IMG/VR virus record: IMGVR_UViG_3300020183_004338
Location: 1 to 35,045 of that record
Direction: 5' to 3' (one strand)
Source: a virus
DNA length: 35,045 nt
Numbering within the stretch: the first letter of the stretch is position 1; every line of letters starts with the position of its first letter. Shown in pieces: positions 1-35,045 of this stretch. Below the pieces are notes generated by a model. That model had not been told where the DNA came from and ran no database searches. It was given only the letters and a program-made list of their open reading frames with translations. Position numbers and translations under genes: made by a program.

Positions 1-540
1 TGTATATCTTTCTGCACCTGTAATAGGATCTTGTCCTATCAACCCTAAAAATATACCCAGTGCTAATGCTAATAATCCACGAAACCAATATTTGTTATTA
101 ACGAAAACTACGCTAGCGAATGCTAATATTAAAAACGCGAGGATTTCAGGTGTTGCTAACTTTAATACCAATGTTGCGTACATAGGTAAAAACAAGAACA
201 CTAGAAATCCCCAAAGTAAGCCGTTAGCCGTTGAAGTGCTTATTGCTGCTCCTAACGCTCTAGCGGCTTCTCCCCTTTTAGTCATGGGGAAACCATCTAC
301 CATGCTAGCAGCACTGCCGCCAGCACCCGGTATGTTCATAACAATACTAGCAAAACTATCACCTATCGCTGCTGCTACGACCATGCTTGTAGTGAATACA
401 ACTAGGAGATATGGGTCTGCTCTAAAATAATCTAGGAAACCAAATATCGTGACTAATCCTACACCCGCGCCCGCTACTGGAATAACACCGAATAAAAATC
501 CGTATAGTGTGCCTAAAATTAGTGAAATGATATATTCCAT
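1..540 (-). CDS. tctA: Tripartite tricarboxylate transporter TctA-family membrane protein (partial, C-terminus outside window)
   Basis: The minus-strand frame is open from an ATG at 538-540 to the window edge, giving 180 residues. TctA is the large membrane subunit of tripartite tricarboxylate transporters, which take up citrate and other carboxylates with a periplasmic TctC binding protein and small TctB. The sequence is strongly hydrophobic. It carries the family's glycine-rich N-terminal stretch and the conserved segment around MNIPGAGGS, then DGFPMTKRGEAARALGAA, close to the TctA signature of NIPG, a DGYPMAKKGEA-like stretch and RALG. TctA proteins are usually about 500 residues, so roughly the first third is visible. 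A late-promoter octamer (GATAAATA) lies about 24 nt upstream, which suggests phage-controlled expression. No tctB or tctC is visible. Family call is firm; function in a phage is inference. Confidence 0.85.
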   Translation of the reverse strand, partial: MEYIISLILGTLYGFLFGVIPVAGAGVGLVTIFGFLDYFRADPYLLVVFTTSMVVAAAIGDSFASIVMNIPGAGGSAASMVDGFPMTKRGEAARALGAAISTSTANGLLWGFLVFLFLPMYATLVLKLATPEILAFLILAFASVVFVNNKYWFRGLLALALGIFLGLIGQDPITGAERYT

Positions 541-563
541 GATAAGTAGTTGTGTTACGCAAA

Positions 564-571
564 TATTTATC
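564..571 (-). promoter_or_regulatory. T4-type late promoter octamer upstream of tctA
   Basis: The minus strand reads GATAAATA, one base from the T4 late consensus TATAAATA, about 24 nt before the tctA start codon. Confidence 0.55.
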
Positions 572-611
572 TGGGTACGCAAAATTTTTAATAAAAAGTG
601 AAATTTTTTAT

Positions 612-1349
612 ATGAATAGCAAAATTTTCCAACTAATAATGAAAAATTTAGAAGAAAGTCTAAATTTACCTAAGTACGATGAAATTCGTAATAATCTAAA
701 TCAGGATACTATAGTACAGGACTTACCCTGGACTCCTGCTAGATATGAAAAGTTTAAAGTTAAAATAGAACAAACACTTGATCTATCCTGTGAATTTATT
801 GGTTCTATTAAAGAAATCACTAATGATTTAGATATACGTTATAGTAACAGATTTTTTGGACAAATTTGGAAGCCTCACACTGAGGATTATAGTTATACAG
901 GTTGGAATCTTGTAGAAGAAGTAAACAAGTTAAATCCAAAAAAAGTGTTAGATGTTGGTTGCGGGTACAATCAGTTTAAAGACCGTATTAAAAACTTGAC
1001 AGGTATTGATCCTTATAATAATTGTGCTGATTATCAAGTTGACATACTTGAGTTTGCTGCAGTTAAGGAAAGTTTTGATGTCATAATAGCATTGGGATCT
1101 ATTAACTTTAACAGCAGAGAAGATATTGAATTACGATTAGCAAATTGTGTTAAATTATTATCACCTAAGGGTAAGATGTTTTTTAGAGTTAATCCAGGAA
1201 TACAACATATTAAAGGACCTTGGGTAGATGTATTTGCGTGGTCATTTGAACTCGTACATGATTTCGCTAAGAAGTTTAATCTAACATTAGAAACTTTTAA
1301 AAAGGAAGCTAACGGTAGACTGTATTTTGTTTATAGTAAATCTACTTAA
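612..1349 (+). CDS. Class I SAM-dependent methyltransferase
   Basis: One of only two plus-strand genes. It encodes 245 residues from ATG 612. The frame is open back to a GTG at 552, but the extra 20 residues would begin in the promoter region of divergent tctA, so 612 is preferred; no strong Shine-Dalgarno is visible for either. Motif I of Rossmann methyltransferases is clear (VLDVGCGYNQF, residues 112-122), followed by an acidic motif II (TGIDPY) and a later FDVIIALGSINF strand typical of motif IV. The N-terminal ~90 residues are helical and unassigned. Related stand-alone methyltransferases are common in T4-like marine phages. The substrate cannot be read from the sequence. The gene diverges from tctA and converges on the minus-strand gene ending at 1459. 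Confidence 0.8.
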   Translation: MNSKIFQLIMKNLEESLNLPKYDEIRNNLNQDTIVQDLPWTPARYEKFKVKIEQTLDLSCEFIGSIKEITNDLDIRYSNRFFGQIWKPHTEDYSYTGWNLVEEVNKLNPKKVLDVGCGYNQFKDRIKNLTGIDPYNNCADYQVDILEFAAVKESFDVIIALGSINFNSREDIELRLANCVKLLSPKGKMFFRVNPGIQHIKGPWVDVFAWSFELVHDFAKKFNLTLETFKKEANGRLYFVYSKST

Positions 1350-1393
1350 TTTTTACATAAAACTTAGTTGGATTAGTTTGCTGAATATACAAA

Positions 1394-1401
1394 TATTTAT
1401 A
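1394..1401 (-). promoter_or_regulatory. Consensus T4 late promoter octamer, antisense to the methyltransferase
   Basis: The minus strand reads TATAAATA, an exact T4 late consensus, between the end of the methyltransferase and the end of the 1459 gene. Transcription from it would run antisense through the methyltransferase towards tctA. Confidence 0.45.
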
Positions 1402-1441
1402 AAGAACTCACTATACAAAGTAGTCAGAGTTATCACGACCT

Positions 1442-1465
1442 AAAAAATTGTAATAATATTACAAT
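1442..1465 (-). terminator. AT-rich hairpin with T-run, possible terminator
   Basis: The 8-bp inverted repeat ATTGTAAT/ATTACAAT (1447-1454 and 1458-1465, 3-nt loop) is followed on the minus strand by six T. It overlaps the stop codon of the 1459..1698 gene. The stem has few G:C pairs, so it is a weak candidate. Confidence 0.4.
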
Positions 1466-1698
1466 CTGCCACTATCCCATGTTCCGGGCTTTACAGGATT
1501 TGTCTGTGATATTTTATTCATAGCCTCAAGCATATCACGAAAGAAAACAGGGCTTATGTCACGTATGCTTGCTGCTACTGCAGTAAGACCCTTTTCACCG
1601 CCGCTGTAATATTGGGCTGTGTCTTGCATAGACAATCTTTTTAGATCAAGAATAATCTTTTTAACTTCTTGATCGTGTATATCATTTGGGTCATACAT
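1459..1698 (-). CDS. Small phage protein of unknown function (79 aa)
   Basis: I do not recognise a family. The 79-residue product is acidic at its N-terminus (MYDPNDIHDQEVKKII) and mostly helical in appearance, with no signal peptide or membrane segment. A clean late-promoter octamer (GATAAATA, 1704..1711) ends 5 nt before the ATG, leaving no room for a Shine-Dalgarno and supporting this start on a leaderless transcript. The stop overlaps an AT-rich hairpin that may terminate this minus-strand unit. Confidence 0.6.
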   Translation of the reverse strand: MYDPNDIHDQEVKKIILDLKRLSMQDTAQYYSGGEKGLTAVAASIRDISPVFFRDMLEAMNKISQTNPVKPGTWDSGRL

Positions 1699-1703
1699 AC
1701 AGT

Positions 1704-1711
1704 TATTTATC
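1704..1711 (-). promoter_or_regulatory. T4-type late promoter octamer, 5 nt before start codon
   Basis: The minus strand reads GATAAATA, then ACTGT, then the ATG of the 79-aa gene. The expected transcription start falls at or next to the start codon. Confidence 0.6.
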
Positions 1712-1802
1712 AGACTATAAACGAAAGTCCTAAAATAAACAATATAACGATTAATACGAATGCTTTAAAACTAACTCTATAGTTCAACAAATATCTAACC
1801 AT
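1710..1802 (-). CDS. Candidate 30-aa single-pass membrane peptide
   Basis: A short frame from ATG 1800-1802 to TGA encodes 30 residues: a short basic N-terminus (MVRYLLNYRVSFK) followed by one hydrophobic segment (AFVLIVILFILGLSFIV) ending at the stop. Its start overlaps the last 8 nt of the upstream 1795..2022 gene, the kind of overlap used for translational coupling in this operon. It fills an otherwise empty ~95-nt gap. Small single-pass membrane peptides are common in phages, but no family is recognised and chance cannot be excluded at this size. Confidence 0.45.
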   Translation of the reverse strand: MVRYLLNYRVSFKAFVLIVILFILGLSFIV

Positions 1803-2022
1803 GTGTAAAAGATGCGACATAATCCTCTACCAACTCTAACTGACCTTCATTGAAAATATGCAGCATACCTGGGAACATTTCAAATTCAAACACATATCGT
1901 ACATCGCCTGTCCTAGTGACAGCAATGCCTACAATATATCCTGTAGCTTGATAACTTCCGCCTACTTTGCGAACCTTGTCGCCGTTTTTAAATTTAAATT
2001 TTGGTATATCGATAGTTGTCAT
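1795..2022 (-). CDS. Small phage protein of unknown function with KFKNGDKV motif (75 aa)
   Basis: A 75-residue product whose N-terminal half (FKNGDKVRKVGGSYQATG) looks like a small SH3-like beta-barrel: a charged turn, then alternating hydrophobic strands through VGIAVTRTGDVRYVFEFE. Similar short 'GDKVRKVGGSYQATG' proteins occur in phages and bacteria without assigned function (from memory, not searched). Its start overlaps the stop of the 2019..2252 gene by ATGA, so the two are probably co-translated. No signal peptide or membrane segment. Confidence 0.6.
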   Translation of the reverse strand: MTTIDIPKFKFKNGDKVRKVGGSYQATGYIVGIAVTRTGDVRYVFEFEMFPGMLHIFNEGQLELVEDYVASFTHG

Positions 2023-2252
2023 ACAAAATCCTTAAGGCCAAAATGTGATCTGATTTTATCTCCAAAAGTTTTGTAAGGATAACTTGTATTTTCGTCTGCT
2101 AGTTTAGCACATTCTTCAATAATATTTTCAGCAAAACTTTGTAAACGTTGACTATTGACTTCAGGGAAAGTGCTGCCACCGGTTTTAAGGGCAATTTCAA
2201 ATACTTTATTAGTCATACCTTTTGGCTTATATCTGCTAAAATCGTATTTCAT
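2019..2252 (-). CDS. Conserved small phage protein of unknown function (77 aa)
   Basis: A 77-residue protein with the pattern FAENIIEECAKLADEN near its middle and IRSHFGL at its end. The same arrangement (LIVRECAxIADxN then IKKHFG) is widespread in small tailed-phage proteins of unknown function. A sigma70-like promoter (TTGATA, 16 nt, TATAAT) ends 6 nt before the ATG, so the transcript is likely leaderless. It leads a small operon with 1795..2022 and probably the 30-aa membrane peptide. Confidence 0.65.
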   Translation of the reverse strand: MKYDFSRYKPKGMTNKVFEIALKTGGSTFPEVNSQRLQSFAENIIEECAKLADENTSYPYKTFGDKIRSHFGLKDFV

Positions 2253-2258
2253 AATACA

Positions 2259-2286
2259 ATTATATCATGTCTAAAAACAATATCAA
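2259..2286 (-). promoter_or_regulatory. Sigma70-type promoter 6 nt before start codon
   Basis: The minus strand has TTGATA (2281-2286), a 16-nt spacer and TATAAT (2259-2264); the ATG at 2252 begins 6 nt later. Confidence 0.5.
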
Positions 2287-2290
2287 TATA

Positions 2291-2737
2291 TCAGTTGCAC
2301 CAACTCTCTTTCTTTTCACCAAAATATGCACGGGCATGACCATTTTTGATAAGCATCTCTGATAGACGCTTACCGTCAATGAATACATCACCTAACACAC
2401 GACCACCAAATTTATCGTGGTCTTTAATCTCAAACTGTATAGTTTTTGCTTTTGCTACAGCCTTTTTGGTAAATTCACTTGCAAGTTTAGCCTTTGCACT
2501 TTCCTCCGGACACTGAGCGCGACTTCCTTTTTCAGGTGTATCAACACCCAATACACGCAATGCTAGTACTGGCTTTAAGCCAAGATGTTGTTGCATGAAA
2601 GGTGCTTCAAATTGTACTGTATCACCGTCACTTACTTTAACAACTTTATAACTATAAAGTGTTTGGGCTAATGCTTCATTTATAAAGAAGCCAAATAAGA
2701 ACCCAAAAATTAATCCTAACTTAGTGCCGTTACTCAT
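2291..2737 (-). CDS. Secreted thermonuclease-like (SNase family) protein
   Basis: A 148-residue protein of the staphylococcal nuclease family, a Ca2+-dependent endonuclease of DNA and RNA. Residues 1-24 form a signal peptide: a hydrophobic stretch GLIFGFLFGFFINEALA and an ALA-Q cleavage site, so the mature enzyme should be periplasmic or exported. The OB-fold core follows: VSDGDTV (residues 36-41) and the catalytic pattern R61 / E69 in RVLGVDTPE, then R113 in GGRVLGDV, matching the Arg-Glu-Arg triad of SNase. Residues that bind Ca2+ (acidic D37, D39, D66) are also present. Length fits a minimal SNase domain. It could degrade DNA outside the cytoplasm, for nucleotide salvage or against superinfecting DNA (inference). 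Confidence 0.85.
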   Translation of the reverse strand: MSNGTKLGLIFGFLFGFFINEALAQTLYSYKVVKVSDGDTVQFEAPFMQQHLGLKPVLALRVLGVDTPEKGSRAQCPEESAKAKLASEFTKKAVAKAKTIQFEIKDHDKFGGRVLGDVFIDGKRLSEMLIKNGHARAYFGEKKESWCN

Positions 2738-2754
2738 TATAATATCCCGTAAAA

Positions 2755-2973
2755 CTATTTATTATAACCAAATGTTTTAAATTCCTCATTAAAAATATTA
2801 AATATTCTTGCTTTTTGTAATTTGGTTAACATTTCAATACTAGATTTTATACGGCTATAATTAAATAGCATTAAATTTTCTCGGGGATTATAAGGGATGT
2901 CTAATATATTTTTTATCTTTTTAAAATCACTTTCAAGATTTTCATAATAAAAAATATGTAGTTTTGCTGACAA
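2755..2973 (-). pseudogene. Sulfotransferase-like protein, C-terminal part (out of frame with N-terminal part)
   Basis: This frame continues the sulfotransferase begun at 3362. Reading in the same frame upstream of its apparent TTG start at 2973, codons remain open and sensible back to 3066, directly behind an A7 run. The 103 residues beyond that point (IKLDQLLDIFEFN..., then LHIFYYENLESDFKKI, typical of the C-terminal helix-strand of sulfotransferase-2-like proteins) are therefore probably not an independent gene. A single added A, a -1 ribosomal shift or transcriptional slippage would join the two parts into a 202-residue enzyme. Confidence 0.6.
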
Positions 2974-3062
2974 CTTATTATTAGTCCAATATAATTGATT
3001 TTTAAGGAATAAATCTGACGCGGATGTATTAAATTCAAATATGTCTAAAAGTTGATCAAGTT

Positions 3063-3074
3063 TTATTTTTTTCC
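3063..3074 (-). other. Possible -1 frameshift or slippage site (A AAA AAA followed by stop)
   Basis: The minus strand reads GGA AAA AAA TAA, containing the heptamer A-AAA-AAA in the zero frame immediately before the stop. A -1 shift gives ATA AAA CTT and joins both sulfotransferase halves. An assembly or sequencing error in the homopolymer is equally possible. Confidence 0.5.
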
Positions 3075-3362
3075 TTGATTATTTAAATGTTGTGTTAAAC
3101 TAATACATCTAGTATAGGGGTTTCTTACAAATACAAACTCAAAAAAGTTTGTAAAATTATAGTTAGTTTTTTTTAAAAATTCTTGATTTATATGTGTTGG
3201 AATTTCTTCATTAGGTAATATAAATTTACTGTTAACTAATTGATTTTTTAATTCAGTAATTAATGATAAGTCTATATGTTTATTCAAACTATTGTGAATT
3301 GATAAACCGGCAGTTTTAGGTATATGAAAGAAAATAAACTTGCGTTTATGACAGCAAATCAT
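3063..3362 (-). CDS. Sulfotransferase-family protein, N-terminal part (frameshifted)
   Basis: Ninety-nine residues are read before a TAA. The N-terminus has the PAPS 5'-phosphosulfate loop of sulfotransferases (FIFFHIPKTAGLSIHNSL, HIPKTAG at 13-19), and residues 76-85 (FEFVFVRNPYTR) match the 3'-phosphate-binding strand with its Arg. These define the sulfotransferase-2 / heparan-type family, which transfers sulfate from PAPS to carbohydrates. The frame ends in GGA AAA AAA TAA, and the missing C-terminal half lies in the -1 frame downstream (2755..3062). Phages may use such enzymes to modify surface glycans (inference). Whether this copy is functional depends on the frameshift. Confidence 0.7.
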   Translation of the reverse strand: MICCHKRKFIFFHIPKTAGLSIHNSLNKHIDLSLITELKNQLVNSKFILPNEEIPTHINQEFLKKTNYNFTNFFEFVFVRNPYTRCISLTQHLNNQGKK

Positions 3363-3375
3363 ATTTTAATATTAA

Positions 3376-3774
3376 TTATTTGTCATCACGATCTCCAGGC
3401 AAGGTTGACATATAACGATTGCCTTTTATAGCCGACTTTACTGGTTCACTACCCTTAAAGTTTAATGCCTTATGAAATCCCTCAATATTAGCTGAAGCTA
3501 TATCTTGCATACGACTTCTATCATCCGGTTTTAATTCAGAATATTTTTTAAGAAATTGCTTTATTTGATCTATCTGCAACTTAGCCTTTTTACCGTCTTT
3601 AAAAGTAATTGAATAATCACCATCTACGTCTAATGCTTTGCGTAGTTGCATTATAATATGGGGTATTTTGTCCATTTCTGGATCTTCTGGTTTATCTTCA
3701 ACATCATCTAAATCGACATGCTTTTTAGTGAGTTTTTTAAGCTTTTTCTCAAGCAGTATTTCATGAATTCTCAT
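3376..3774 (-). CDS. Phage protein with capsid-targeting-like leader (132 aa)
   Basis: The frame is open from 3807, but the start is placed at ATG 3772-3774. This gives the N-terminus MRIHEILLE, shared in pattern with six other proteins in this block, removes overlap with the upstream gene, and sits 5 nt after a GATAAATA late octamer. The rest is charged (KKLKKLTKKHVDLDDVEDK), then a folded-looking segment with ISITFKDGKKAKL-like strands, and a basic tail ending in LPGDRDDK. No known family. By analogy with T4 internal proteins it may be packaged in the head and processed after the Glu at position 9 (inference). Confidence 0.6.
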   Translation of the reverse strand: MRIHEILLEKKLKKLTKKHVDLDDVEDKPEDPEMDKIPHIIMQLRKALDVDGDYSITFKDGKKAKLQIDQIKQFLKKYSELKPDDRSRMQDIASANIEGFHKALNFKGSEPVKSAIKGNRYMSTLPGDRDDK

Positions 3775-3779
3775 AGTAA

Positions 3780-3787
3780 TATTTATC
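3780..3787 (-). promoter_or_regulatory. T4-type late promoter octamer, 5 nt before start codon
   Basis: The minus strand reads GATAAATA, then TTACT, then ATG (3774). It lies inside the end of the upstream 3791 gene's neighbourhood and supports the MRIHEILLE start. Confidence 0.6.
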
Positions 3788-3790
3788 TCA

Positions 3791-4093
3791 TTAAAGATAT
3801 TGGTCATTACCCTTTAAGTAGTTATAAACTAACTCTTTGGCTCTAGGACTGAGTTGTACATTATATCTTAACATAAGATCATTTACAAGTTCTGCTCTGG
3901 GCAAGGTCGCCAATAGTTTTGCAGGAGTATTTTTTATAACAAACCTTAGTTTATTCAATTCTTGCTTAACTTCAGGTATATCAAGAAAGGCACGTAATTC
4001 ATGAGGTGGGCTATGATTTTGCTCATAGGTCATTGCTCTTATACGGTATTGTCCGTTACTATAACCTTCTGAGGTAAATTCACTGTATCTCAT
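3791..4093 (-). CDS. Phage protein with capsid-targeting-like leader (100 aa)
   Basis: A 100-residue protein starting MRYSEFTSEGY, a variant of the MRYREFL(F/I)E leader of its two upstream neighbours. The rest is mostly helical, with a repeated-looking helix-turn pattern around TPAKLLATLPRAELVNDL and a C-terminal helix LSPRAKELVYNYLKG. No family recognised. The stop of the 414-aa gene and this start share one base (TAATG), so translation is coupled. It is probably co-expressed with the GxGTxWCTA proteins upstream. Confidence 0.6.
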   Translation of the reverse strand: MRYSEFTSEGYSNGQYRIRAMTYEQNHSPPHELRAFLDIPEVKQELNKLRFVIKNTPAKLLATLPRAELVNDLMLRYNVQLSPRAKELVYNYLKGNDQYL

Positions 4094-5337
4094 TATAGTT
4101 CTTCTGCTTCTATACGTAGAGGTTGTGGTATAAATTTATTTGTAAAATCATCGAATATTTGAGAATAATCTTTTCTATAATCAGCCATTGTTTTTAAAAA
4201 TAGTTTTTGTACGTTTTTTATTTCAGGTGATAAATCTTTTTCTTTATCCATTGTTCTAAAAGCTATGTCATGTGTATTTACATCCACTTGAATGAATACA
4301 ACATCAGTATAGTCTTTATTAAATACAGCAAACATTAATATAGGTAATTCTCCCTTTGTATCGTTTGGTTCCCAATCATCATTTATATTGCTTTTATTTC
4401 TACGAACAAGAAATTCTGCTAGTTTAATTCTATCTATATCAATGTCTTCGATGTCAGGATGATCATTCATATAAACAATATGGCTTCCGTTCGGCATATC
4501 TACTGTATATTTTTTAAGCTCGTTTATTATTTGATTTAATTCTTTTTTAGTGAATTTCAATACTAAAAAATAACCAGTGTGATGTTTTGCTATTTGACTA
4601 TTAAATATCTCATAAAGCTGTGGATATTTTTGTGCTAGTTCTCTGCCTATCTCATTATCTATAGACCTATCACGTTCATCCATGAACTGTCCATATGGAA
4701 AGCTAAATTGATATTTCTGACCATTGTATGTTGGGTTCTTGGGTATCACTATGTATAATGGTCCAAATCTATTATATCTTTCAAACTGATTTATCCCTAC
4801 TGTAGACGCAGTACACCAACGTGTGCCCTGTCCATAATAACAAGCAGCAGCCTTGTCTTGTGGTACTATAATTCGTAAATCGTTATCTTCATAAAATACT
4901 TTTGCTTGACCCTTATCTCTGTCTTCGGGTTTAACAGGATCAGGATATTCATCTATAACGTTCATAAAGTCTGGAACATTATCGTACCTGTTAATATCAT
5001 TTCTTGGATTTTCAATCATGCGGCGTTGTTTTAGTTTATGAAACTTTGCAAGATATTCAGGTAATTGTCCAATATAATCTTCAAACTTTACGAGGTTTCT
5101 TGGATCTGTATATTTACGTGCCATCCATTGCACATATTCTTTGTTTGGTGTTGGATCTGCGTCTTCAAGTTGCTTGATAAAATCATCAATTAATTGTTGT
5201 CTCCCAACAGGGTCGTCTAATAAATTAAAATTAGCATCTTTTGGGCGTTCTTTTTTTAATGCCATTAAAAGTTTTTCACCAAAGTTTTTCTTGGTAATGT
5301 CACGATTATATTCAAATAGGAATTCACGATATCTCAT
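4093..5337 (-). CDS. Phage protein with capsid-targeting-like leader and GxGTxWCTA domain (414 aa)
   Basis: A 414-residue protein. Residues 1-9 (MRYREFLFE) resemble the T4 capsid-targeting leader. Residues ~145-235 form the domain shared with the next two upstream genes: a strand LRIIVPQDKAAACYYGQG, the signature GQGTRWCTAS (169-178), then QFERYNRFGPLYIVIPK and YQFSFPYGQFMDE. The conserved Cys-x4-6-Gly-Thr-x-Trp-Cys core and the F..YN..GPLY turn suggest one compact fold; its activity is unknown to me. The C-terminal ~180 residues are acidic and unlike the neighbour. Start and stop both overlap adjacent genes by one base (TAATG). Nothing indicates truncation. Confidence 0.7.
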   Translation of the reverse strand: MRYREFLFEYNRDITKKNFGEKLLMALKKERPKDANFNLLDDPVGRQQLIDDFIKQLEDADPTPNKEYVQWMARKYTDPRNLVKFEDYIGQLPEYLAKFHKLKQRRMIENPRNDINRYDNVPDFMNVIDEYPDPVKPEDRDKGQAKVFYEDNDLRIIVPQDKAAACYYGQGTRWCTASTVGINQFERYNRFGPLYIVIPKNPTYNGQKYQFSFPYGQFMDERDRSIDNEIGRELAQKYPQLYEIFNSQIAKHHTGYFLVLKFTKKELNQIINELKKYTVDMPNGSHIVYMNDHPDIEDIDIDRIKLAEFLVRRNKSNINDDWEPNDTKGELPILMFAVFNKDYTDVVFIQVDVNTHDIAFRTMDKEKDLSPEIKNVQKLFLKTMADYRKDYSQIFDDFTNKFIPQPLRIEAEEL

Positions 5338-6653
5338 TAGTTTTGCCTAAATCCTACAATGTAGTTACCAAGTTTTCCTACCCACTTTATCTTTAATCCT
5401 TTATACTTGTTAGCATCAGGGTTCTTGCTCATCTCAAAGTTAGTATGGAATCGTTTCCAATAGTTACCACCGAGAGTGTTGTCTATCCAATCTATATAAT
5501 ATTTTTCAAGCATGGTCGTAGTAGCCCAACCATAGTCAAACTGTTCTTTATCTGCTATATCTGCTAATATCTGTTCACCTTGTATTTTTTCAAGGTCTTT
5601 TATATCACGTAAAGCCTGTCTGACATCATCATTATACATAGCATAATCATTTAGTTGTGGATCTTCATATACACGATCCCAATCTATCTCACCATTCTCA
5701 TCTACATAGCCTTTCTGTATAGCAGCCTCTGCCCTATATTCATACCAACCATCATCTTCAGCTTCCATATCACTGACTGCTTCCCAGACTATATCTCCGA
5801 GGTATTCACTAACTATTTTATTGATATCAGTGATTTCTTTTGGATCTACAAACAATAACAAATCTTCATCGTCTAACTCTTTCTTTAGTAATTTTAAAAA
5901 TCCTGGATAGTCTTTGAGTTTTGTTAGACTTACTGGATCATCTTTTTCATCCATAAACTGTTTTTCGTTTATGTGTAGTTGATATTTCTCACCTTGATAT
6001 TTAGGCTGCTTTGGTATTATGATATATAATGGACCATTTCTATTGTAGTTGTCAAAATAGTTTTCGCCTTTTGTAGCAGCAGTACACCAACGTGTGCCTT
6101 GACCATAATAGCAGGCAGCATCTTGGTCTTTAGGATGTATCACTCTTGCATCTGGACCGTCATAAACAACTTCGGCATCACCTTTGTTCTTGTCTTTTTC
6201 TTTATCTTTAGGTGCTATATAATCATCGATCTTTTCTGCTATACCTTCAATCTGATCGGCACTGAGTTTGCTTATATCATTGAAGCCTACATTATATTTA
6301 AATAGCTCTTTAAAAGCATTTGTATTCTTATATTTGTGAAATAATTCAAGACTATTTTTGATACGGCTTAAATCTTCAAGGCGTCTGATTTTACCTTTGA
6401 TATACTCACGGGCTATCCAAGGCGTATATTGATTGTTAGGTGTAGGATCGTTATTCTCAAAACTTGTTAATATATTGGAAGCGATAGTGTCTAATATCTT
6501 TTCAATAGCATATCCCTTTTCTCCTAAAGATTTGTAATAGGCATTAAATAAATCACTGTCAGGACTATTTTGTAATCTGTCAGCAACCTGTTTACCGAAC
6601 TGGCGTTTAGTGATATCACGATTATACTCTATGAGAAACTCACGGTATCTCAT
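5337..6653 (-). CDS. Phage protein with capsid-targeting-like leader and GxGTxWCTA domain, paralogue (438 aa)
   Basis: Paralogue of the 414-aa neighbour. The first 15 residues are nearly identical (MRYREFLIEYNRDIT versus MRYREFLFEYNRDIT), and the central domain repeats AACYYGQGTRWCTAAT (residues 179-194), YFDNYNRNGPLYIIIPK and KQFMDEKD. The C-terminal ~190 residues differ: very acidic, rich in Asp, Trp and Tyr (EAEDDGWYEYR, DEQFDYGWATTT-like stretches), ending in KIKWVGKLGNYIVGF. The conserved leader and core with divergent C-termini look like an effector family with swapped tails. A one-base TAATG overlap couples it to the downstream copy. Function unknown. Confidence 0.7.
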   Translation of the reverse strand: MRYREFLIEYNRDITKRQFGKQVADRLQNSPDSDLFNAYYKSLGEKGYAIEKILDTIASNILTSFENNDPTPNNQYTPWIAREYIKGKIRRLEDLSRIKNSLELFHKYKNTNAFKELFKYNVGFNDISKLSADQIEGIAEKIDDYIAPKDKEKDKNKGDAEVVYDGPDARVIHPKDQDAACYYGQGTRWCTAATKGENYFDNYNRNGPLYIIIPKQPKYQGEKYQLHINEKQFMDEKDDPVSLTKLKDYPGFLKLLKKELDDEDLLLFVDPKEITDINKIVSEYLGDIVWEAVSDMEAEDDGWYEYRAEAAIQKGYVDENGEIDWDRVYEDPQLNDYAMYNDDVRQALRDIKDLEKIQGEQILADIADKEQFDYGWATTTMLEKYYIDWIDNTLGGNYWKRFHTNFEMSKNPDANKYKGLKIKWVGKLGNYIVGFRQN

Positions 6654-6656
6654 AGC

Positions 6657-7637
6657 TTATGCCTCAGGTTGTTCTAGGTTTTGTTTTATTTGGTCGGGTT
6701 TTAATGTAAAAGCCCTTTGGAATGTATTTTTAAGCACTTGAGTATCTTTATCTACATCATAACCTTTTCTTAATCCAGGTACGATTTTGCTTGCTTGGTT
6801 GATTTCTTCTGCTTTGTTGGTCATGGCTTTTACTATATCGACCATCAAGCCAGGAAATAATTGTCCGAACTGTTCTTCTCCATTATACCTATTAGTCTGT
6901 CTTGCATTGACGATTTGCTTTGTTGGTGCATGTATCTGCCACTTACCATTGATATCATCCATGTTTTGTTTATCGAAAACTGTTATGACCGGGCCTTCAT
7001 CAGCATAACGTTTGAACCAATCAGCGCCATGGCTACCACCTGTGCAGAATGATGCTTGTGTGCCTTGAGCATTATTAAACATATAGCAAGCACCATAATT
7101 CATTGGTATAGCTACGAAAAATCTGTCATTGTCTATCAATGTTACGCTCTTAGCATCACGCTTCATCTTCTCAAGTTTTTCTTGGACTCCTATCTGTTGT
7201 AACATCCCACTATAGGGCATACTTGCCATCTTTGCTTGTATTCTTGCTATGTTTTTAAATCTATTGAAGTCTTGATCTTCTGGCTGCAACATTCCACGCT
7301 TGCTCAATGCCTTCCATTTAGCGAGTGCATCAGCAGCTTCACCGCTAATATCTTCATAGTCTAAGTCACCACTCATGTATTGGCGTAGTATGTAATCATC
7401 AAACTTGCCGTCTTTGCTGATATCACCAAAATCTGTGCTTGAGAATGCTTGATCTATTAAGTCTCCAAGAGCGAGAACTATAGACTTATCATCAGGCTTT
7501 GGTCCAAGCTTTGCCAGGGTGTTAAATGGTATGGTGCGATCCTGCATAAAAGCAATGCCTAATAGTTTGCTAATACGTGGATCTTCGCTTGCTTTTTTAA
7601 AGTTTTGCGGACTTTCAAGTAGTTGTTGTATCTTCAT
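6657..7637 (-). CDS. Phage protein with divergent GxGT...CTG domain (326 aa)
   Basis: Starts MKIQQLLESPQ, again the Met-Lys/Arg ... Leu-Leu-Glu leader. Residues ~165-265 resemble the central domain of the two downstream genes: FFVAIPMNYGACYMF, then QGTQASFCTGG (191-201), DWFKRYADEGPVITVFDK and KWQIHAPTKQIVNARQ. The Trp before the second Cys is replaced by Phe and the Gly-rich turn differs, so this is a distant member. The N-terminal 140 residues are helical and acidic. The gene overlaps the upstream gene by 4 nt (ATGA) and lies 3 nt before the 438-aa copy. Function unknown. Confidence 0.65.
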   Translation of the reverse strand: MKIQQLLESPQNFKKASEDPRISKLLGIAFMQDRTIPFNTLAKLGPKPDDKSIVLALGDLIDQAFSSTDFGDISKDGKFDDYILRQYMSGDLDYEDISGEAADALAKWKALSKRGMLQPEDQDFNRFKNIARIQAKMASMPYSGMLQQIGVQEKLEKMKRDAKSVTLIDNDRFFVAIPMNYGACYMFNNAQGTQASFCTGGSHGADWFKRYADEGPVITVFDKQNMDDINGKWQIHAPTKQIVNARQTNRYNGEEQFGQLFPGLMVDIVKAMTNKAEEINQASKIVPGLRKGYDVDKDTQVLKNTFQRAFTLKPDQIKQNLEQPEA

Positions 7638-8599
7638 AAATCTTTTTTTGCCAATATTGCATTTTTAAAATATGATAATACAGTGCTAAGTTTCTTAGTG
7701 TCACCCTTGCTTATATCATTAATAAGATCATATAAACCCTGCTTGTCACCCAGTCGAACGCTTCCAAATACACGGTCAATACCACCTGTTACTTCAGGAT
7801 AAAAATGTTGTGCTGATATCATCAATGCCTGTTTGATAGGGTGACCAAAAATTTCCATTATCTGTCTGTCAGATAATTTTCCTGCTTCAAGCCTTGCTAT
7901 ATAATCGTCAAGTTTTTGCAAATAACGTATCTTTTCTTCCATCTTTTTATAGCTGCCACCTTTCAACATTATGTTAAGCATACCTTTGTATTCGGCTTCA
8001 GCTTGTTTCAATGTACGCAAAAATGTTGGCTTGAACTTCTTCAATAAAAACTGTTCAGCGTTTTCATATGATAAAGTATCGGTGGCGCTTGGCTGTTTAT
8101 ATCCTTGGCGCTGTGTTTTCTTTCCTTGTAAATCACGTCCTGCACCGGCACCTACGGTATAAAGCTCAACAGTTTTACCTATAGCTTTTTTCATCAATAA
8201 TTTAGCGCCGTTACCGCTGCTTGTAATCAAATCTATGAATTTTTCATCACCCTTATCACCGAGCCATTTATTGCCAAAATCGTGTCCTAAAGGTATATTT
8301 GAGGGTCTTGGTAATATTACTCTATATTGTCTATTATTATTATTATATAATATTGCACCTGCACCTTTCTCGCCGGCTATTATGTACCATCGACCACCGT
8401 CATATGCACCCCTACGACCAAGCACGATGTCAGTTGTAGGTCTAAAGTCGGCATTGTGTGGGATGTCGGCGTTCTTGTGCATATATTTGCCGATCTCTGT
8501 ACCGCCCGGCACTTTTCTGATAGCATCAATAGTAGTGCTTACCTCGTTCATTATGCTTTCGCATAACTTTGCAAATAGATAGTGTCCTTTCTTAGCCAT
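7634..8599 (-). CDS. Phage protein of unknown function (321 aa)
   Basis: The open frame extends upstream to 8743, but that part lies antisense-free inside the Dps-like gene and reads as Arg/Cys-rich out-of-frame sequence. The start is therefore set at ATG 8597-8599 (MAKKGHYLFAKLCESIM), 5 nt after a CGTAAATA late-type box. The product is basic with Gly-rich strands (GAYDGGRWYIIAGEKGAGA) in the first 100 residues and a long helical region (~190-260, YKGMLNIMLKGGSYKKMEEK). The C-terminus is FKNAILAKKDL. No family recognised. Gene order between the Dps-like and leader-bearing genes suggests a virion-associated role, which is only inference. Confidence 0.6.
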   Translation of the reverse strand: MAKKGHYLFAKLCESIMNEVSTTIDAIRKVPGGTEIGKYMHKNADIPHNADFRPTTDIVLGRRGAYDGGRWYIIAGEKGAGAILYNNNNRQYRVILPRPSNIPLGHDFGNKWLGDKGDEKFIDLITSSGNGAKLLMKKAIGKTVELYTVGAGAGRDLQGKKTQRQGYKQPSATDTLSYENAEQFLLKKFKPTFLRTLKQAEAEYKGMLNIMLKGGSYKKMEEKIRYLQKLDDYIARLEAGKLSDRQIMEIFGHPIKQALMISAQHFYPEVTGGIDRVFGSVRLGDKQGLYDLINDISKGDTKKLSTVLSYFKNAILAKKDL

Positions 8600-8604
8600 A
8601 TATG

Positions 8605-8612
8605 TATTTACG
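8605..8612 (-). promoter_or_regulatory. Late-type promoter box 5 nt before start codon
   Basis: The minus strand reads CGTAAATA, then CATAT, then ATG (8599). It keeps TAAATA of the late consensus at the same distance seen for the 1698 and 3774 genes. Confidence 0.4.
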
Positions 8613-9048
8613 CACGTTCCTTTTTCAATATACTTCTTATCATCCAACCATGTTTGGCATGTGCGTCTAATCGTTCTGCGATATAGTTCTCTATACCATA
8701 GTTGCCTTCTTTCTTTGCATGTTGCATACATTCTTGCAAGCAACCTATGACGATATCGTTATCTTGTTGTAACTCAGCAAACATTAGTTCAGCACGTGGT
8801 ATCATAGTCTGACCTTTGATTTGACTTAGTTCTATATAACGTTCCATGCTGCCTGGTGTATAGGCATCAAGTGTACGAATATACTCTGCTGTCAGGTCAA
8901 GTGAATTGTATACTTCGGTATATAATTTACCAAAAAATTTATGGTACTGCGGAAAGTCTGGACCTTCTACGTTCCAATGAAACTGTTGTGCTTTAATTAC
9001 AAAGCTATAACTATTTGCTAATAATTGTTTTAAACTGTCTGCTAACAT
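8608..9048 (-). CDS. dps: Dps-like ferritin (DNA-protection / ferroxidase family)
   Basis: A 146-residue four-helix-bundle protein of the Dps family, which forms dodecamers that oxidise and store iron with H2O2 and protect DNA. Signature residues are all visible: H24 in QQFHWNVEGPDF, H36 in QYHKFF, and D51 and E55 in SLDLTAEYIRTL, corresponding to the inter-subunit ferroxidase centre. Length is near the family minimum; the N-terminus lacks the Lys-rich tail of E. coli Dps, so DNA binding is uncertain. The start shares one base with the stop of the 254-aa gene (TAATG). In a phage it could guard DNA against oxidative damage or be carried in the virion (inference). Confidence 0.88.
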   Translation of the reverse strand: MLADSLKQLLANSYSFVIKAQQFHWNVEGPDFPQYHKFFGKLYTEVYNSLDLTAEYIRTLDAYTPGSMERYIELSQIKGQTMIPRAELMFAELQQDNDIVIGCLQECMQHAKKEGNYGIENYIAERLDAHAKHGWMIRSILKKERA

Positions 9049-9812
9049 TATATGTTCCTACCTATCATTTTTGTATTATCATTGAACATAGTGCTATCAC
9101 TTTCTGGCCAAGCATAAACATATTCACCAAACTCATCACGCACTACGAGCCAGCGTATGCCATTTGCCTTGAATTGATTTACATCAGCGTGATAACCAGG
9201 TATTATCTGCTCAAAATCAAGATCGCCTACCCCCATGTTATGACCTTTATCACGCAGATAGCCTGCTACAGCATTCATCTCACGGCTACTATTAGGTCCC
9301 ATGTTCATTATATTACCTATCATGTATATATTTTCTGTTGGAGTGCGTGTAAACACACGAAACAATTGTTTGCCCATAGTTCTTATATTACGGCTCATGT
9401 TGCCAGGTAAGTTTGCTACTTGATGGAATGTTGGTGCCACTCTGCCTGCTGCTGCTATAGCTTTATTAGCAAGTACAGGCAAGTTTTCTGTATCTACACG
9501 AACATTTAAATTAGTAGCGGGCTCAGGTGGAGGATATCCTGCATCAGTTGGATCAATATCGATATTACGCATACGTGACAATAGATCACGCATTCTCTCG
9601 CTTGGTGTGATACCAGCAGTAGCACGTAATGTATCACCTTGACTTGCTTTCTTTAAATCTGATGTAGTTGGCTCTGACTTAGGTTCTTCTGGCTCAACAG
9701 TTGCGGGCGGTTTATCATCTGGAGTTAATATGTCAGGACCCGCAGGTGTGTCAGTATAAGTCTTTGTTGTGACTTCATCATCTTTCTTTTTTGCTTCACC
9801 AACCTTATTCAT
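9048..9812 (-). CDS. Phage protein with Pro/Thr-rich N-terminus (254 aa)
   Basis: A 254-residue protein with a low-complexity, Pro/Glu/Thr-rich first 100 residues (PAGPDILTPDDKPPATVEPE and PPPEPATN) followed by a folded C-terminal domain. That domain contains RVAPTFHQVANLPGNMSR, TENIYMIGNIMNMGPNS, AGYLRDKGHNMG and RWLVVRDEFGEYVYAWPES. No catalytic motif is recognised. The start (ATG GTAAGT-free, after TGTAAAA) overlaps the 47-aa DUF6356-like ORF by 8 nt, and the stop overlaps the Dps start. It is likely a virion or internal protein given its neighbours, which is inference. Confidence 0.6.
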   Translation of the reverse strand: MNKVGEAKKKDDEVTTKTYTDTPAGPDILTPDDKPPATVEPEEPKSEPTTSDLKKASQGDTLRATAGITPSERMRDLLSRMRNIDIDPTDAGYPPPEPATNLNVRVDTENLPVLANKAIAAAGRVAPTFHQVANLPGNMSRNIRTMGKQLFRVFTRTPTENIYMIGNIMNMGPNSSREMNAVAGYLRDKGHNMGVGDLDFEQIIPGYHADVNQFKANGIRWLVVRDEFGEYVYAWPESDSTMFNDNTKMIGRNI

Positions 9813-9948
9813 TTTTACAAATTTCCCTGCTTACGGTTGTCTTCCATATTTCAGGAAATAGACCGTGTACTAATAATATAAATGCCCAGCGCCATGCTCT
9901 AAATAAATGTTTAAAGTATCCTATATTATTATCGCCTAAATGTGTCAT
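9805..9948 (-). CDS. DUF6356-like small membrane protein (47 aa)
   Basis: A 47-codon frame from ATG 9946-9948 to TAA. It begins MTHLGDNNIGYFKHLFRAWR, then WAFILLVHGLFPEIWKTTVS. The His-Leu-Gly start, YFxH, an Ala-x-x-hydrophobic helix, HGxFP and a terminal T-x-S match my memory of the DUF6356 family of short membrane-associated proteins found in alphaproteobacteria and phages. It overlaps the stop of the upstream 350-aa gene by ATGA and the start of the 254-aa gene by 8 nt, filling what would otherwise be a gap. The tight coupling on both sides supports real translation. Confidence 0.7.
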   Translation of the reverse strand: MTHLGDNNIGYFKHLFRAWRWAFILLVHGLFPEIWKTTVSREICKNE

Positions 9949-10997
9949 TTGTTTACACTATTGCTCTTTGTATGTTTACCGGCTTGTCTTGCTTTTCGTC
10001 CGGCACAGTGTGCTTTTTGACTAAACCCTTTTGGATTACTACAATTAATTGATTTTTTATATTTTTTGCTCCATACTTCATCGATAGTATTTTCTTCGTT
10101 AAGTTTTGGACTACTAGGATTTGTTTTATACCATACATCTTCACTGCCATTGTATGCTACAACAGGATATTTCGTTTTTCTATCATAGACTAGTGAAGGA
10201 CTATCAAGCTCTCTGTTTGCAATTAGTTCAGCAGCATAAATTGCATCATTCAAACTATTAGTATCCATCTCTAACCCTGAATTTTGACTGTATACTAAAT
10301 ATCTTGGCAGATCAGCAACTTTACGTTGTGCTTCTTTACCATAAATTTTTGTAATCATGTCATCAATAGTTTGATCAAAATTTGATTTATAATCTTCTTT
10401 AACTTTTGTTTTTACAAGAATAGGCGCTTGGCCTTTACCACCAGATTGCCTACCGGGTCTGCCTGCTTTGCGTTGTGCTGTTCGTTTACGACTGATGGCA
10501 GACTTTTTTTCTTTGTCTGACATCTGCGATGCCTTTTTTGATGGTACGCACTTTGCGTATCCAGATGTTTTACCTGAAGTACCACACGGTTCATAACCTC
10601 GACCCCCTTTCTTTTTCTTTGCAAGATTAACCCACTTTTGCTTAAACCATTTACGTAGGCCACCTTGATAAGCTTCTTCTAACTGCCCTTGTGTAGCCAA
10701 ATAACTCACATACATGTCAGATGCTAAACTTTCAAGATCAGTAAAATCTACTTCATCAAATTGTTGCTGTAATTTAGGTTGATTATTTTTTAACCAAACA
10801 GTAATATGGTCTATAAATTCTTTATGATTGTTGTTCCCTATAACATTTCTAGCATAGGTTCCCTTATCACTTTTTAAAAATTGTCCTAATAATATTTTTT
10901 CCGCAGCAGATCCTTTCCAATTTCTTGAAAGGATTTTATCTAATTCAAACTTAATGTTTGGATCAATTGCTTCAATTATGAATTCTTTTGCTCTCAT
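9945..10997 (-). CDS. Phage protein with capsid-targeting-like leader and KWF..KWV cysteine motifs (350 aa)
   Basis: Starts MRAKEFIIEAI, the leader pattern of this block. Residues ~112-190 hold the motif GGLRKWFKQKWVNLAKKKKG, then EPCGTSGKTSGYAKCVP and a basic MSDKEKKSAISRKRTAQRK stretch, a combination common in proteins of large T4-like phages. A second motif ends the protein: INCSNPKGFSQKAHCAGRKAR. The paired Cys and dense Lys/Arg suggest metal or nucleic-acid binding. The N-terminal 100 residues are helical. The start overlaps the end of the 2OG-oxygenase gene by 26 nt. Function unknown; a virion DNA-binding protein is a guess. Confidence 0.65.
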   Translation of the reverse strand: MRAKEFIIEAIDPNIKFELDKILSRNWKGSAAEKILLGQFLKSDKGTYARNVIGNNNHKEFIDHITVWLKNNQPKLQQQFDEVDFTDLESLASDMYVSYLATQGQLEEAYQGGLRKWFKQKWVNLAKKKKGGRGYEPCGTSGKTSGYAKCVPSKKASQMSDKEKKSAISRKRTAQRKAGRPGRQSGGKGQAPILVKTKVKEDYKSNFDQTIDDMITKIYGKEAQRKVADLPRYLVYSQNSGLEMDTNSLNDAIYAAELIANRELDSPSLVYDRKTKYPVVAYNGSEDVWYKTNPSSPKLNEENTIDEVWSKKYKKSINCSNPKGFSQKAHCAGRKARQAGKHTKSNSVNK

Positions 10998-11631
10998 CTC
11001 TGTACCAACATCCCCCTACAAATATTCTAGTCACATCTTTATTTAATATTGGAGTCATCCAGTGTGGGTGATCTCTTGTCCATATTATTAAAGTATTTGG
11101 TTTAGGGAAATATTCAACTTGATTTTCGTTTAGTTCTGCAATATCAATATTGCTGCTATCACTTATCTTTATAGAACCTTCCCAACTTTCCTCCCATATA
11201 TTATGTGTAAACAAAATACTTGTAAAACAATCTACAGCTTCATATATTCCTAAACCCCCATCTCTATGCCTATGAAATACACTGTTATAGTCAGTATATT
11301 GAAGCCATAAGTTTTGCAATACTACATCGTTATATCCCTGTTCATAAAAATAATTGTACATTTTTTGTAATGGATTTTCAAATTCACTGCCAAAAAATTT
11401 AACTGTATTACTTTTTATGTTATAATAATAAAAATTTCCATCGTACCTATATCTTTTTACTCTTCTTTCTCCCTTACCCTTTAAGTATCTACCATGTTTA
11501 TCATCTAAATAATTGTCTACTGTATCCCAAACTCCATTATCATCGTTGCTTAAGTTTTTATAACTTATAACTTTTTCTGATAATTTTTTAAATTCTGTCT
11601 CTTCTAAAAAATTCTCTTTATAAAACCACAT
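10972..11631 (-). CDS. 2-oxoglutarate/Fe(II)-dependent oxygenase
   Basis: A 219-residue protein with the jelly-roll oxygenase signature: the iron ligands H122-x-D124 in FHRHRDGG and H190 in DHPHWMTPI, and R202 in TRIFVGGCW that would bind 2-oxoglutarate. These enzymes hydroxylate or oxidise protein, nucleic acid or small-molecule substrates using O2. Many T4-like marine phages carry members of the prolyl-4-hydroxylase-like subfamily. Here the collagen-like fibre at 32596..35045 could be a substrate, but Pro is sparse in its GAT repeats and this is speculative. The start shares one base with the stop of the 566-aa gene (TAATG). Confidence 0.82.
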   Translation of the reverse strand: MWFYKENFLEETEFKKLSEKVISYKNLSNDDNGVWDTVDNYLDDKHGRYLKGKGERRVKRYRYDGNFYYYNIKSNTVKFFGSEFENPLQKMYNYFYEQGYNDVVLQNLWLQYTDYNSVFHRHRDGGLGIYEAVDCFTSILFTHNIWEESWEGSIKISDSSNIDIAELNENQVEYFPKPNTLIIWTRDHPHWMTPILNKDVTRIFVGGCWYRDESKRIHN

Positions 11632-13331
11632 TATGTCTTCCTAATACCTTTCATTATACCGCTTTCTTTTGTTTTCTTCTTACAACTACCAACAGCCCCT
11701 GCAGGTACACCGCGGACTCTTGTATAACCAGGCCAACATTTTAATTCATCTAATTGTTCATCTTCAGGAGTAAACATAGGTGCTTGCTCTTCTGATGTAA
11801 TGTCAGGTGTTTTAGGTTTTTTAGCAAATCTTTCTTTCTTCATTGGTTTGCCGAATTGATATTCTAAGTAAGTAATATGATTTCTAGTTCCTTGACCAAC
11901 AGGGCTATAAACATCATAAACATACAATCCACTAGGATCTTTTTTCAATTTTAATTTAAGTGCCATTTGTTCTAATTCTTTACCTAAGTTTTCTTTATCT
12001 ATCTGAGTATTATAAAACAAATCTCTTGCTGCTCTTCCTCTAGAAATATTATAATATAATTTTTGTGCCAAATATCTATCTGGTTCGCCTATTATATCGA
12101 TTGGTAGTTCACTTGCTCTTAATTCTGGAGCTAAAGCAGACACCGATCCAAGACCTCCGCTTCTTCTAGCCCATACATTAACTGGGTTAGCTTCCGCTAC
12201 ATCGTATCTTTGATCTTGCGGCTTAAGAGTTGCAGATTTCATTGTATTAACGATCCTCTGACCGCTTGGGCTTACTAAATAATCGTAAAAAATTTTGTTT
12301 GCGACCATAGGATCGCTGCCATCTAATTTTGTAGGCAAATCTGGCAATATTTTACCGCCCATACTACCATAAAATTCTCCAAACAATTTGCTAAATGTGA
12401 ATTGACCAATTAATTTACCATTATTATAAATTGGATATTCATATACTATGTCTTTTGGATCATCAATTTCTTCTTTTCTAGGTTTGCCTAATCTAATATT
12501 ATGTGTTGGTACTTCAGTATCTTCGTTAGTAGGTGCTAAGCCAGTTAAATGGACTGTGGCCTTTTTATTATATCTTCTTTCAATTGTTCTAGCAGCTTTT
12601 TCAGCCTGCTCTTTGCTAGGAAATACTTTCCAATGTTTATCATTAATCTTTACTTGATAGTTATTTTTTGGTTCGTTGCGTAATTCGTACTCCATTTCAC
12701 TGCGTTTGAAGTCTCTGCGTTCTTTATCCATGGCGTCTTGTTCTTTGCGCTCATCGTCCATAGGATTATAGTACCGACTGTATCGTCCTTCTTCAACATC
12801 TTTTTCATCTTCATTTAAGTTATCATAATGACCCATTTCAAGTCCTGCTATCACACTACGTAGATTTATTTTGTTTTCATTTATATTTTCATTTATAGCG
12901 GTAAAGATTTGATTAAAATCAAACTTAACTAAAATATCTGATCGATTTTCTTTTAAATAATTTAAAATCCTTGCATAGCTTTCACCCATGCGCCAACCGC
13001 CGCCCATCTTTTTATATTCTTTACTTGCATAAGCGTTAGCATATGCACTTGGATATACATCAAACTTACTACGGGCTTTTGCTTTTGCTCTTGCCCATTT
13101 ATCAGGACTTGTTGGTTTAGGTTTTTTCTTTTTCTCAGCTATTAAATTTATAGAGCTATTATCTACATCCACAGGCTTTTTATCTTGTTCAGGTTTTTGT
13201 TTTTTTGCACTAGGGTCATATACGTTTTGTTTAGGTTCAGTTTTTACATTTTGTCTAACTACAACCGGAGGCACAGGATTTACTCTGCGTATATTTGTTT
13301 CTTTTGTTAAGCCCTTAATTATATTACTCAT
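11631..13331 (-). CDS. Phage protein with VYPSAYAN motif and cysteine tail (566 aa)
   Basis: A 566-residue basic protein. Residues ~72-115 carry a motif frequent in T4-like phage proteins: KPTSPDKWARAKAKARSKFD then VYPSAYANAYASKEYKKMGG. The middle contains NYQVKINDKHWKVFPSKEQAE, a compact alpha/beta motif that looks like a small nucleic-acid or peptide-binding repeat, and HLTGLAPTNEDTEVPTHNIR. The C-terminus has ELKCWPGYTRVRGVPAGAVG followed by SCKKK, again a paired-Cys basic tail. Low-complexity Pro/Lys runs separate the parts. Start overlaps the upstream gene by 8 nt (ATGAGTAA) after AAGGAAAAC. Probably a virion-associated protein (inference); no enzyme signature. Confidence 0.6.
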   Translation of the reverse strand: MSNIIKGLTKETNIRRVNPVPPVVVRQNVKTEPKQNVYDPSAKKQKPEQDKKPVDVDNSSINLIAEKKKKPKPTSPDKWARAKAKARSKFDVYPSAYANAYASKEYKKMGGGWRMGESYARILNYLKENRSDILVKFDFNQIFTAINENINENKINLRSVIAGLEMGHYDNLNEDEKDVEEGRYSRYYNPMDDERKEQDAMDKERRDFKRSEMEYELRNEPKNNYQVKINDKHWKVFPSKEQAEKAARTIERRYNKKATVHLTGLAPTNEDTEVPTHNIRLGKPRKEEIDDPKDIVYEYPIYNNGKLIGQFTFSKLFGEFYGSMGGKILPDLPTKLDGSDPMVANKIFYDYLVSPSGQRIVNTMKSATLKPQDQRYDVAEANPVNVWARRSGGLGSVSALAPELRASELPIDIIGEPDRYLAQKLYYNISRGRAARDLFYNTQIDKENLGKELEQMALKLKLKKDPSGLYVYDVYSPVGQGTRNHITYLEYQFGKPMKKERFAKKPKTPDITSEEQAPMFTPEDEQLDELKCWPGYTRVRGVPAGAVGSCKKKTKESGIMKGIRKT

Positions 13332-14232
13332 AACTGTTTTCCTTAGTTTTTTTCTTCATAGAATTAATAAATTTTCTATAAACTCCTGCTGCTTCGCTTT
13401 TACCTGCTGCTTTTGCTCGTTGTTCCATAGCAACTGCAGCCTGTATTTTGTGAGCATGACTGCGGCCGCTGTTTCTAATTTTACTAACACTTGCTCTAGC
13501 ATCATCTGCTGTAGCAAATTTTAATCCAGTAATAGTACCCTTAGGATTTTCATCTGTATATAAATCGCTATGCTTCTTGCTATTAGCAGGCTGTCCTGGC
13601 TTTCTTGCTATACGCTTGCCTTCCGCCACAGGTTGCATATCACCTGCTTTAACTTTGGCATATTTGTCCATGACGCTATCTGGTGATGCTACTTTACCGG
13701 CAGCCACTTTCCAACTTGGAACGTTTTTTAATTTTTTATCCTCTCTGCCACCTCTAGCTGCTGCTGATGATGTAGATATGTATCTTTGTAAAGTATCTTT
13801 ACTTAATTCATTTAATGATGGTTCTGCCAAACTATCTGCTACACTGTTTAGGTAATCGCTGGCTAATGTGATGTAACTTTGCTGCCAACCCATCAATCCT
13901 TCATCTTCGCTACGATTTTGTATTTGTTTCATTATACGCATAGCATTTTTTGTAGCAGCATATAGGTCCTTGCGTGCCATTTCTACTTCGTGATCTCTGC
14001 GGTCCTTAGCATGCGGAATAAAACTAGTATCTTTACTACGACGCATGCCTGGAACAATAATTAAGTCTTGTTCTACAATTTCGTCTTCATAAAAAGGCTT
14101 TTTTGTTTTTTTGCCTTTAAATAAACTACCAGCTCTTTTCTGAATTTTACCTAAAGAACCTGCTACACTGCTAATACTTCCACTAGCTGTAGCACCCGCT
14201 GTAGTTTCATTAATAATTTGAGAGATTTTCAT
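13324..14232 (-). CDS. Phage protein with capsid-targeting-like leader and AHKIQAAVAMEQRA motif (302 aa)
   Basis: First gene of the block. It starts MKISQIINETTAGATASGSI, combining the leader pattern with an Ala/Gly/Ser-rich stretch often seen at the start of myovirus head-associated proteins. Residues 60-150 are helical and charged. The C-terminal ~70 residues match a motif seen in phage and alphaproteobacterial proteins: GLKFATADDARASVSKIR, then HAHKIQAAVAMEQRAKAAGK and YRKFINSMKK. A late octamer (14256..14263) lies 24 nt upstream with GGATAG as a weak Shine-Dalgarno. Predicted virion component or packaged protein, function unknown. Confidence 0.6.
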   Translation of the reverse strand: MKISQIINETTAGATASGSISSVAGSLGKIQKRAGSLFKGKKTKKPFYEDEIVEQDLIIVPGMRRSKDTSFIPHAKDRRDHEVEMARKDLYAATKNAMRIMKQIQNRSEDEGLMGWQQSYITLASDYLNSVADSLAEPSLNELSKDTLQRYISTSSAAARGGREDKKLKNVPSWKVAAGKVASPDSVMDKYAKVKAGDMQPVAEGKRIARKPGQPANSKKHSDLYTDENPKGTITGLKFATADDARASVSKIRNSGRSHAHKIQAAVAMEQRAKAAGKSEAAGVYRKFINSMKKKTKENSYE

Positions 14233-14255
14233 ACTAGCTATCCGATAATTATATG

Positions 14256-14263
14256 TATTTATC
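14256..14263 (-). promoter_or_regulatory. T4-type late promoter octamer at head of the leader-protein block
   Basis: The minus strand reads GATAAATA 24 nt upstream of the 302-aa gene, just downstream of a terminator, so it probably starts the 14232-to-3376 operon. Confidence 0.6.
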
Positions 14264-14279
14264 AGAATATTAGCGTTTA

Positions 14280-14309: not shown

Positions 14310-14327
14310 GCTATTTTGCGTTTATCT

Positions 14328-32595: not shown

Positions 32596-35045
<2,450 letters not shown>

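Follow-up and report, generated by a model that had tools for sequence, protein, structure and literature searches.

Phages carry single parts of uptake systems, for example PstS, and the product of pstS is generally taken to cooperate with a permease of the host. The locus described here resembles phage pstS and similar uptake genes (PHROG 5385) in that a secreted binding protein of the kind raising nutrient uptake is phage-carried, but tctA-tctC phages bring permease and binding protein together. Another likeness is to the phage glnK-amtB-ompL cassettes, where a phage-borne inner-membrane transporter adjoins an outer-membrane porin; the viral pair of amtB and a porin gene (amtB-ompL) is the closest precedent for the barrel gene discussed below, although these cassettes combine an ammonium channel with a regulator and contain no periplasmic binding protein (PMC8115048). 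TctA-type genes have likewise appeared on viral contigs, as a tctA domain match of unknown role on SUP05 viral contigs (PMC4164917) and as 'tricarboxylate transport' genes on a viral norB/nirK scaffold (PMC8115048). These are passing mentions that leave the role open, and the passages concerned give no operon structure, clade or barrel (PMC4164917, PMC8115048). Across the open-access literature searched, phage TctA/TctC operons are also met in passing mentions only, with the tctA-tctC operon, the viral clade and the barrel variant undescribed.

The cellular counterparts are the tripartite tricarboxylate transporters, or TTT systems (TctABC, Bug systems), with which the phage system shares a TctA permease carrying the TM7 motif and a secreted TctC/Bug-fold protein encoded in one operon. 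It differs from them by the lack of any TctB that we could find, by its gene order (tctA-tctC, not tctCBA), by a TM1 motif reading P-x-A-G, by a binding protein of ~350 aa, by being phage-borne and, in one clade, by an inserted barrel gene. We conclude that the DNA analyzed here probably contains the beginning of a phage operon for solute uptake (tctA, barrel gene, tctC-like gene) serving late import of a carboxylate-type solute. What the computations show is that the gene lies in phage DNA, how the genes are ordered, which families and folds the parts belong to, that selection is purifying and that a promoter-like octamer is present.

The window, i.e., the whole stretch of DNA that was analyzed, is an entire IMG/VR record of 35,045 bp; the record is classed as linear, so the window is probably a fragment. 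The features around its first gene are:

Positions 1 to 540, minus strand: tctA, the N-terminal 180 of ~483 codons, with a PF01970 match and viral homology.
Positions 564 to 571, minus strand: GATAAATA, a T4-type late-promoter-like octamer, enriched upstream of ORFs and kept before tctA in relatives.
Positions 612 to 1349, plus strand: a SAM-methyltransferase-like gene (Methyltransf_23, E = 1.6e-4, under the Pfam cut-off), divergent from tctA.

The original prediction of a TctA-family gene beginning at 540 was confirmed on the minus strand: the ATG occupies positions 540-538, the frame is open to base 1, the end of the record, and the encoded 180-aa fragment matches positions 2-175 of the 423-position PF01970 profile (E = 7e-34). 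Truncated as it is, the gene is cut by the contig end and for that reason only, since the relatives are full length. Nine viral contigs encode TctA proteins with 59-84% identity, all of 482-497 aa, and the syntenic full-length relatives are 66-84% identical to the window fragment; full-length viral relatives scored 264-311 bits against PF01970, the family of the TTT permease. Exact 34-35-mers from the window, sought for an overlapping longer contig, found no match, and neither did a PDB sequence search with TctA. In TTT permeases, the motif G-x3-G-x3-G-x2-P-G-x-G is duplicated in TM1 and TM7 (PMC5812351). The TM7 copy is normal in most viral relatives; the TM1 copy reads P-x-A-G in nearly all viral TctA proteins, including that of the window (GTLYGFLFGVIPVAG, with PVAG), versus P-G-x in the first motif of the sampled bacterial TctA proteins outside the viral clade. 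Owing to this replacement of P-G-x-G by P-x-A-G in TM1, mechanism or substrate may have changed.

A late octamer had been predicted 24 nt upstream of tctA; it is indeed present, as GATAAATA, with a spacing to the ATG of 23 nt. The contigs L002 and L003 are like the window in having GATAAATA 23 nt before tctA, and L006 and L007 have TATAAATA 50-53 nt before it. In the set comprising the window and these four contigs, [TG]ATAAATA lies 10-65 nt upstream of an ORF start in 15 of 25 cases, compared with ~1.3 expected if evenly spread, and within the window's phage group GATAAATA/TATAAATA is about tenfold enriched upstream of genes. GATAAATA occurs seven times on the minus strand of the window, which carries most genes, and not at all on the plus strand, while TATAAATA is rarer in the window than predicted by a first-order Markov model (3 versus 8). 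The octamer is gene-proximal and TATAAATA-like, as in T4-type late promoters, with G for T as its first base. In the wider tctA family, any such octamer was found within 90 nt of tctA at 8 of 96 loci, so late control would be a trait of the window's clade rather than of the whole family. Our best reading of the sequence pattern is that tctA is under phage late control, with the octamer as a putative promoter element.

Other features of the window were noted in passing. Six proteins encoded within 3376-6653, 9945-10997 and 13324-14232 start with MRYREFLFE-like sequences that resemble the capsid-targeting sequences of T4, which the prohead protease cleaves; the pattern recurs at none of 169 internal Met positions, and the six may be internal head proteins. 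Three adjacent ORFs at 4093-7637 align with distinct or overlapping stretches of a single 1,529-aa ORF of L006 (1458-6047), pointing to split or fused genes or to repeats. By eye, a subtilisin-like protease is encoded in the structural region (30413-31999), and a collagen-like protein with G-A-T/G-P-T repeats (32596-35043) continues past the right end.

The gene next after tctA in relatives encodes a ~351-aa protein with a secretion signal; this position falls beyond the window's end, and by analogy the window's phage probably has a tctC-like gene downstream of tctA too. Profile searches over 169 loci found tctA in 166 and the tctC-like gene in 165; as the loci had been fetched by one or the other gene, it is the pairing and not the raw count that constitutes the evidence. 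At 111 of 114 distinct loci having both, tctA precedes the tctC-like gene on the same strand; the median gap is -7 nt, and the gene ends usually overlap. TctA and TctC distances correlate with r = 0.65, a value reached in 0 of 1000 permutations, which is what a pair inherited together should show. The Pfam TctC profile matches the tctC-like protein weakly, and an alignment of 49 sequences matched BugD (E = 3.8e-5) and other TctC/Bug proteins in a PDB sequence search, similarity to known members being weak beyond ~90 N-terminal residues. An AlphaFold2 model (pLDDT 94.4) has Bug/TctC proteins as all of its best 11 PDB structures (Z 18.0-22.1; next family 13.8), with BugD at Z 22.1 and 3.2 Å over 273 residues, and an AxA-type secretion signal is present in 53 of 66 tctC-like proteins. 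Judged by its modeled fold, the ~351-aa protein is a TctC/Bug-type periplasmic binding protein, the second component expected of a TTT operon. A lone TctA relying on host partners is ruled out for the relatives, which encode the tctC-like protein themselves. Of the partners originally envisaged for TctA, TctB and TctC, the relatives thus carry a TctC-type protein but no recognizable TctB.

Between tctA and the tctC-like gene, the members of the clade to which the window belongs, its closest relatives L002, L003, L004/L006, L007, L098 and L112, have a gene of 185-196 aa whose product bears a signal peptide and a C-terminal phenylalanine; the L002 protein matches Porin_4 and OMP_b-brl at 1e-9. 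A model built from five sequences (pLDDT 84.5) has 10 strands, with OpcA (Z 18.2) and a Legionella porin (Z 17.0) as the best structural matches and KdgM lower (Z 10.8). The interposed gene is therefore predicted to encode a ten-stranded outer-membrane barrel, although having this fold in common with porins is no proof of a pore. Going by its relatives, the window's phage is likely to carry the barrel gene downstream of tctA as well.

TctB (PF07331) was not found in 10 records, which are fragments, and a simple hydropathy rule applied to 53 loci from -4 to +6 kb yielded no ORF of 80-230 aa with 3-6 TM segments. Small ORFs with 2-3 TM segments are present at some loci (L009, 12751-13154) and a DUF6552-type 75-aa protein at 11 loci; neither is general. 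TctB is described as poorly conserved, without a known function and missing from archaea (PMC5812351). Since TctB is so little conserved and archaeal TctA does without it, absence by sequence is no proof, and we speak of a TTT-like system, not of a full TTT; it is best read as a TTT-like solute importer without recognizable TctB.

IMG/VR scans returned at least 147 tctA and at least 357 tctC relatives, of which 80 each were fetched. No tctC relative was found in 50,697 phage records, and among isolate phages tctA matched only three, distant and faecal, at ~30%. In a few phages a second tctA was seen (G008:C1:70477-71712, the record of L009; L043), and L122 has one more copy of tctA or tctC. 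Scanning 84,980 species of bacteria and archaea with a pattern gave three tctC relatives, L170, L171 and L172, two of which (L170, L172) are the convincing cellular copies among those scanned. L172 is an Omnitrophota contig; L170 is a contig of marine bacterium B5-7 with cellular genes, where a phage-type P-loop gene adjoins the cassette. The viral-type tctA-tctC of L170 (6536-9695) is a possible case of phage-to-cell transfer or a provirus remnant. L171, a phage contig in the bin of a Pelagibacter MAG, is weak evidence on the host. Searched with profiles, 299 genomes of Pseudomonadota, 385 of Alphaproteobacteria and 285 of Omnitrophota returned no other near-viral match, the best other scores being 282 and 323 bits versus 554-560 for viral-type proteins. 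The TctA tree unites 54 viral sequences, L170 and L172 in a single group with full support and a long stem, and the nearest sampled bacterial TctA proteins are of 650-680 aa; given a long-branch warning and a bacterial sample of Pseudomonadota only, any sister group of viral TctA is tentative. No close cellular donor emerged within this limited bacterial sampling.

Around the cassette, three neighbors recur over 75 distinct loci: a methyltransferase (67), a P-loop protein (55) and a protein labeled oxygenase-like by eye (40). The latter two have no Pfam or PHROG match and are exemplified by:

L036, 10508 to 11125: conserved P-loop neighbor.
L002, 13736 to 14398: conserved oxygenase-like neighbor.

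Some phages have genes of known uptake systems at this place. On the 213-kb viral contig L066, AmtB and a PstS-like phosphate-binding protein are encoded just downstream of tctA-tctC (12447-14698), a stretch that we regard as a nutrient-uptake island; L161 has PstS near the cassette, and on the 98.6-kb viral contig L010 the genes immediately upstream of tctA (7881-9765) encode homologues of ProX and ProW, which belong to ABC-type uptake of glycine betaine. Few as these examples are, they favor a role in nutrient uptake.

With tctA at a contig end and its family common in bacteria, host contamination or a chimeric contig end had to be considered. Yet the methyltransferase-like gene has counterparts of 66-77% identity, equally divergent from tctA, in L002, L003, L004, L006 and L007, the divergent pair is conserved at 66-84% identity across both genes in independently assembled viral contigs, and homologues of further genes of the window lie upstream of tctA in the same five contigs. 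A T4-type DNA polymerase gene lies a few kb downstream of tctA in L002 and L006 (nearest isolates of the L002 enzyme: the jumbo phages Sinorhizobium phage Phosso and Agrobacterium phage Atu_ph07, <50% identity), and genes for phage polymerase, clamp loader, PhoH and endolysin occur near tctA in relatives. Homologues of the window's phage genes or of the L002/L006-type polymerase are present at 58 of 168 loci, each of at most ~20 kb; isolate phages gave no DNA match to window positions 1-12000. TctA proteins of the 299 Pseudomonadota genomes reached at most 282 bits versus 554 for the viral-type anchor. The conserved divergent order across independent assemblies rules out contamination or chimerism but for a very small residual chance, and, together with the octamer enrichment, bears out the original prediction that tctA is integrated in phage transcription. 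Phages do carry transient cargo, and tctA might be a recent passenger not kept for function, but the full gene has a dN/dS of ~0.04-0.05 (L002 versus L003; window fragment versus L002, ~0.08-0.14), the viral clade is deep and the pairing with tctC is conserved. For the clade this idea is refuted, and we consider it very improbable overall. Conserved pair, nearby phage genes and low dN/dS in concert make chimerism, contamination and decay unlikely.

The main rival to uptake is a changed role, to which altered motif, missing TctB and late-type promoter all point: TctA/TctC and the barrel might be repurposed parts serving export, ion leak, envelope conditioning before lysis or a superinfection block. 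The TM1 change common to nearly the whole viral clade and the long stem separating viral from sampled bacterial TctA would be in line with such a shift, as would the conserved neighbors, which are modification-type or unnamed enzymes and not catabolic genes. On the other hand, the Bug/TctC fold of the binding protein is complete and its secretion signal retained, as expected mainly for solute capture, the TM7 motif is intact in most relatives, and other uptake genes adjoin the cassette in some phages. We therefore regard repurposing as unlikely, though far from negligible, and retain solute uptake as the preferred reading.

For uptake, we envisage that the barrel would admit the solute across the outer membrane, and that the TctC-like protein would capture it in the periplasm and pass it to TctA, which would move it inward on an ion gradient in a TTT-like manner, albeit with no recognizable TctB. 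Driven by a late-type promoter, the importer would be made late, as host precursor supply fails. In the analogous TRAP systems, binding proteins and membrane parts are mutually specific (PMC5812351); similar specificity here would explain why the phage carries both permease and binding protein. Transport as such, its direction, the substrate (a carboxylate or similar small anion), the timing of expression and the originally suggested effect on host carbon uptake are what we infer from these parts; 'tricarboxylate' is a family name, and the substrate is not readable from sequence.

More broadly, there is in our estimation an even chance that a large and almost wholly viral lineage of TctA-TctC secondary transporters, dependent on the binding protein but not on TctB, with an altered first gate motif and sometimes with a phage outer-membrane pore, lets many large uncultivated phages import a specific solute across the entire envelope of the host late in infection. 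If so, such phages would take up a chosen solute with their own permease and binding protein and, in places, their own barrel, and the lineage would offer a natural TctB-less system for probing the role of TctB in the poorly understood TTT family.
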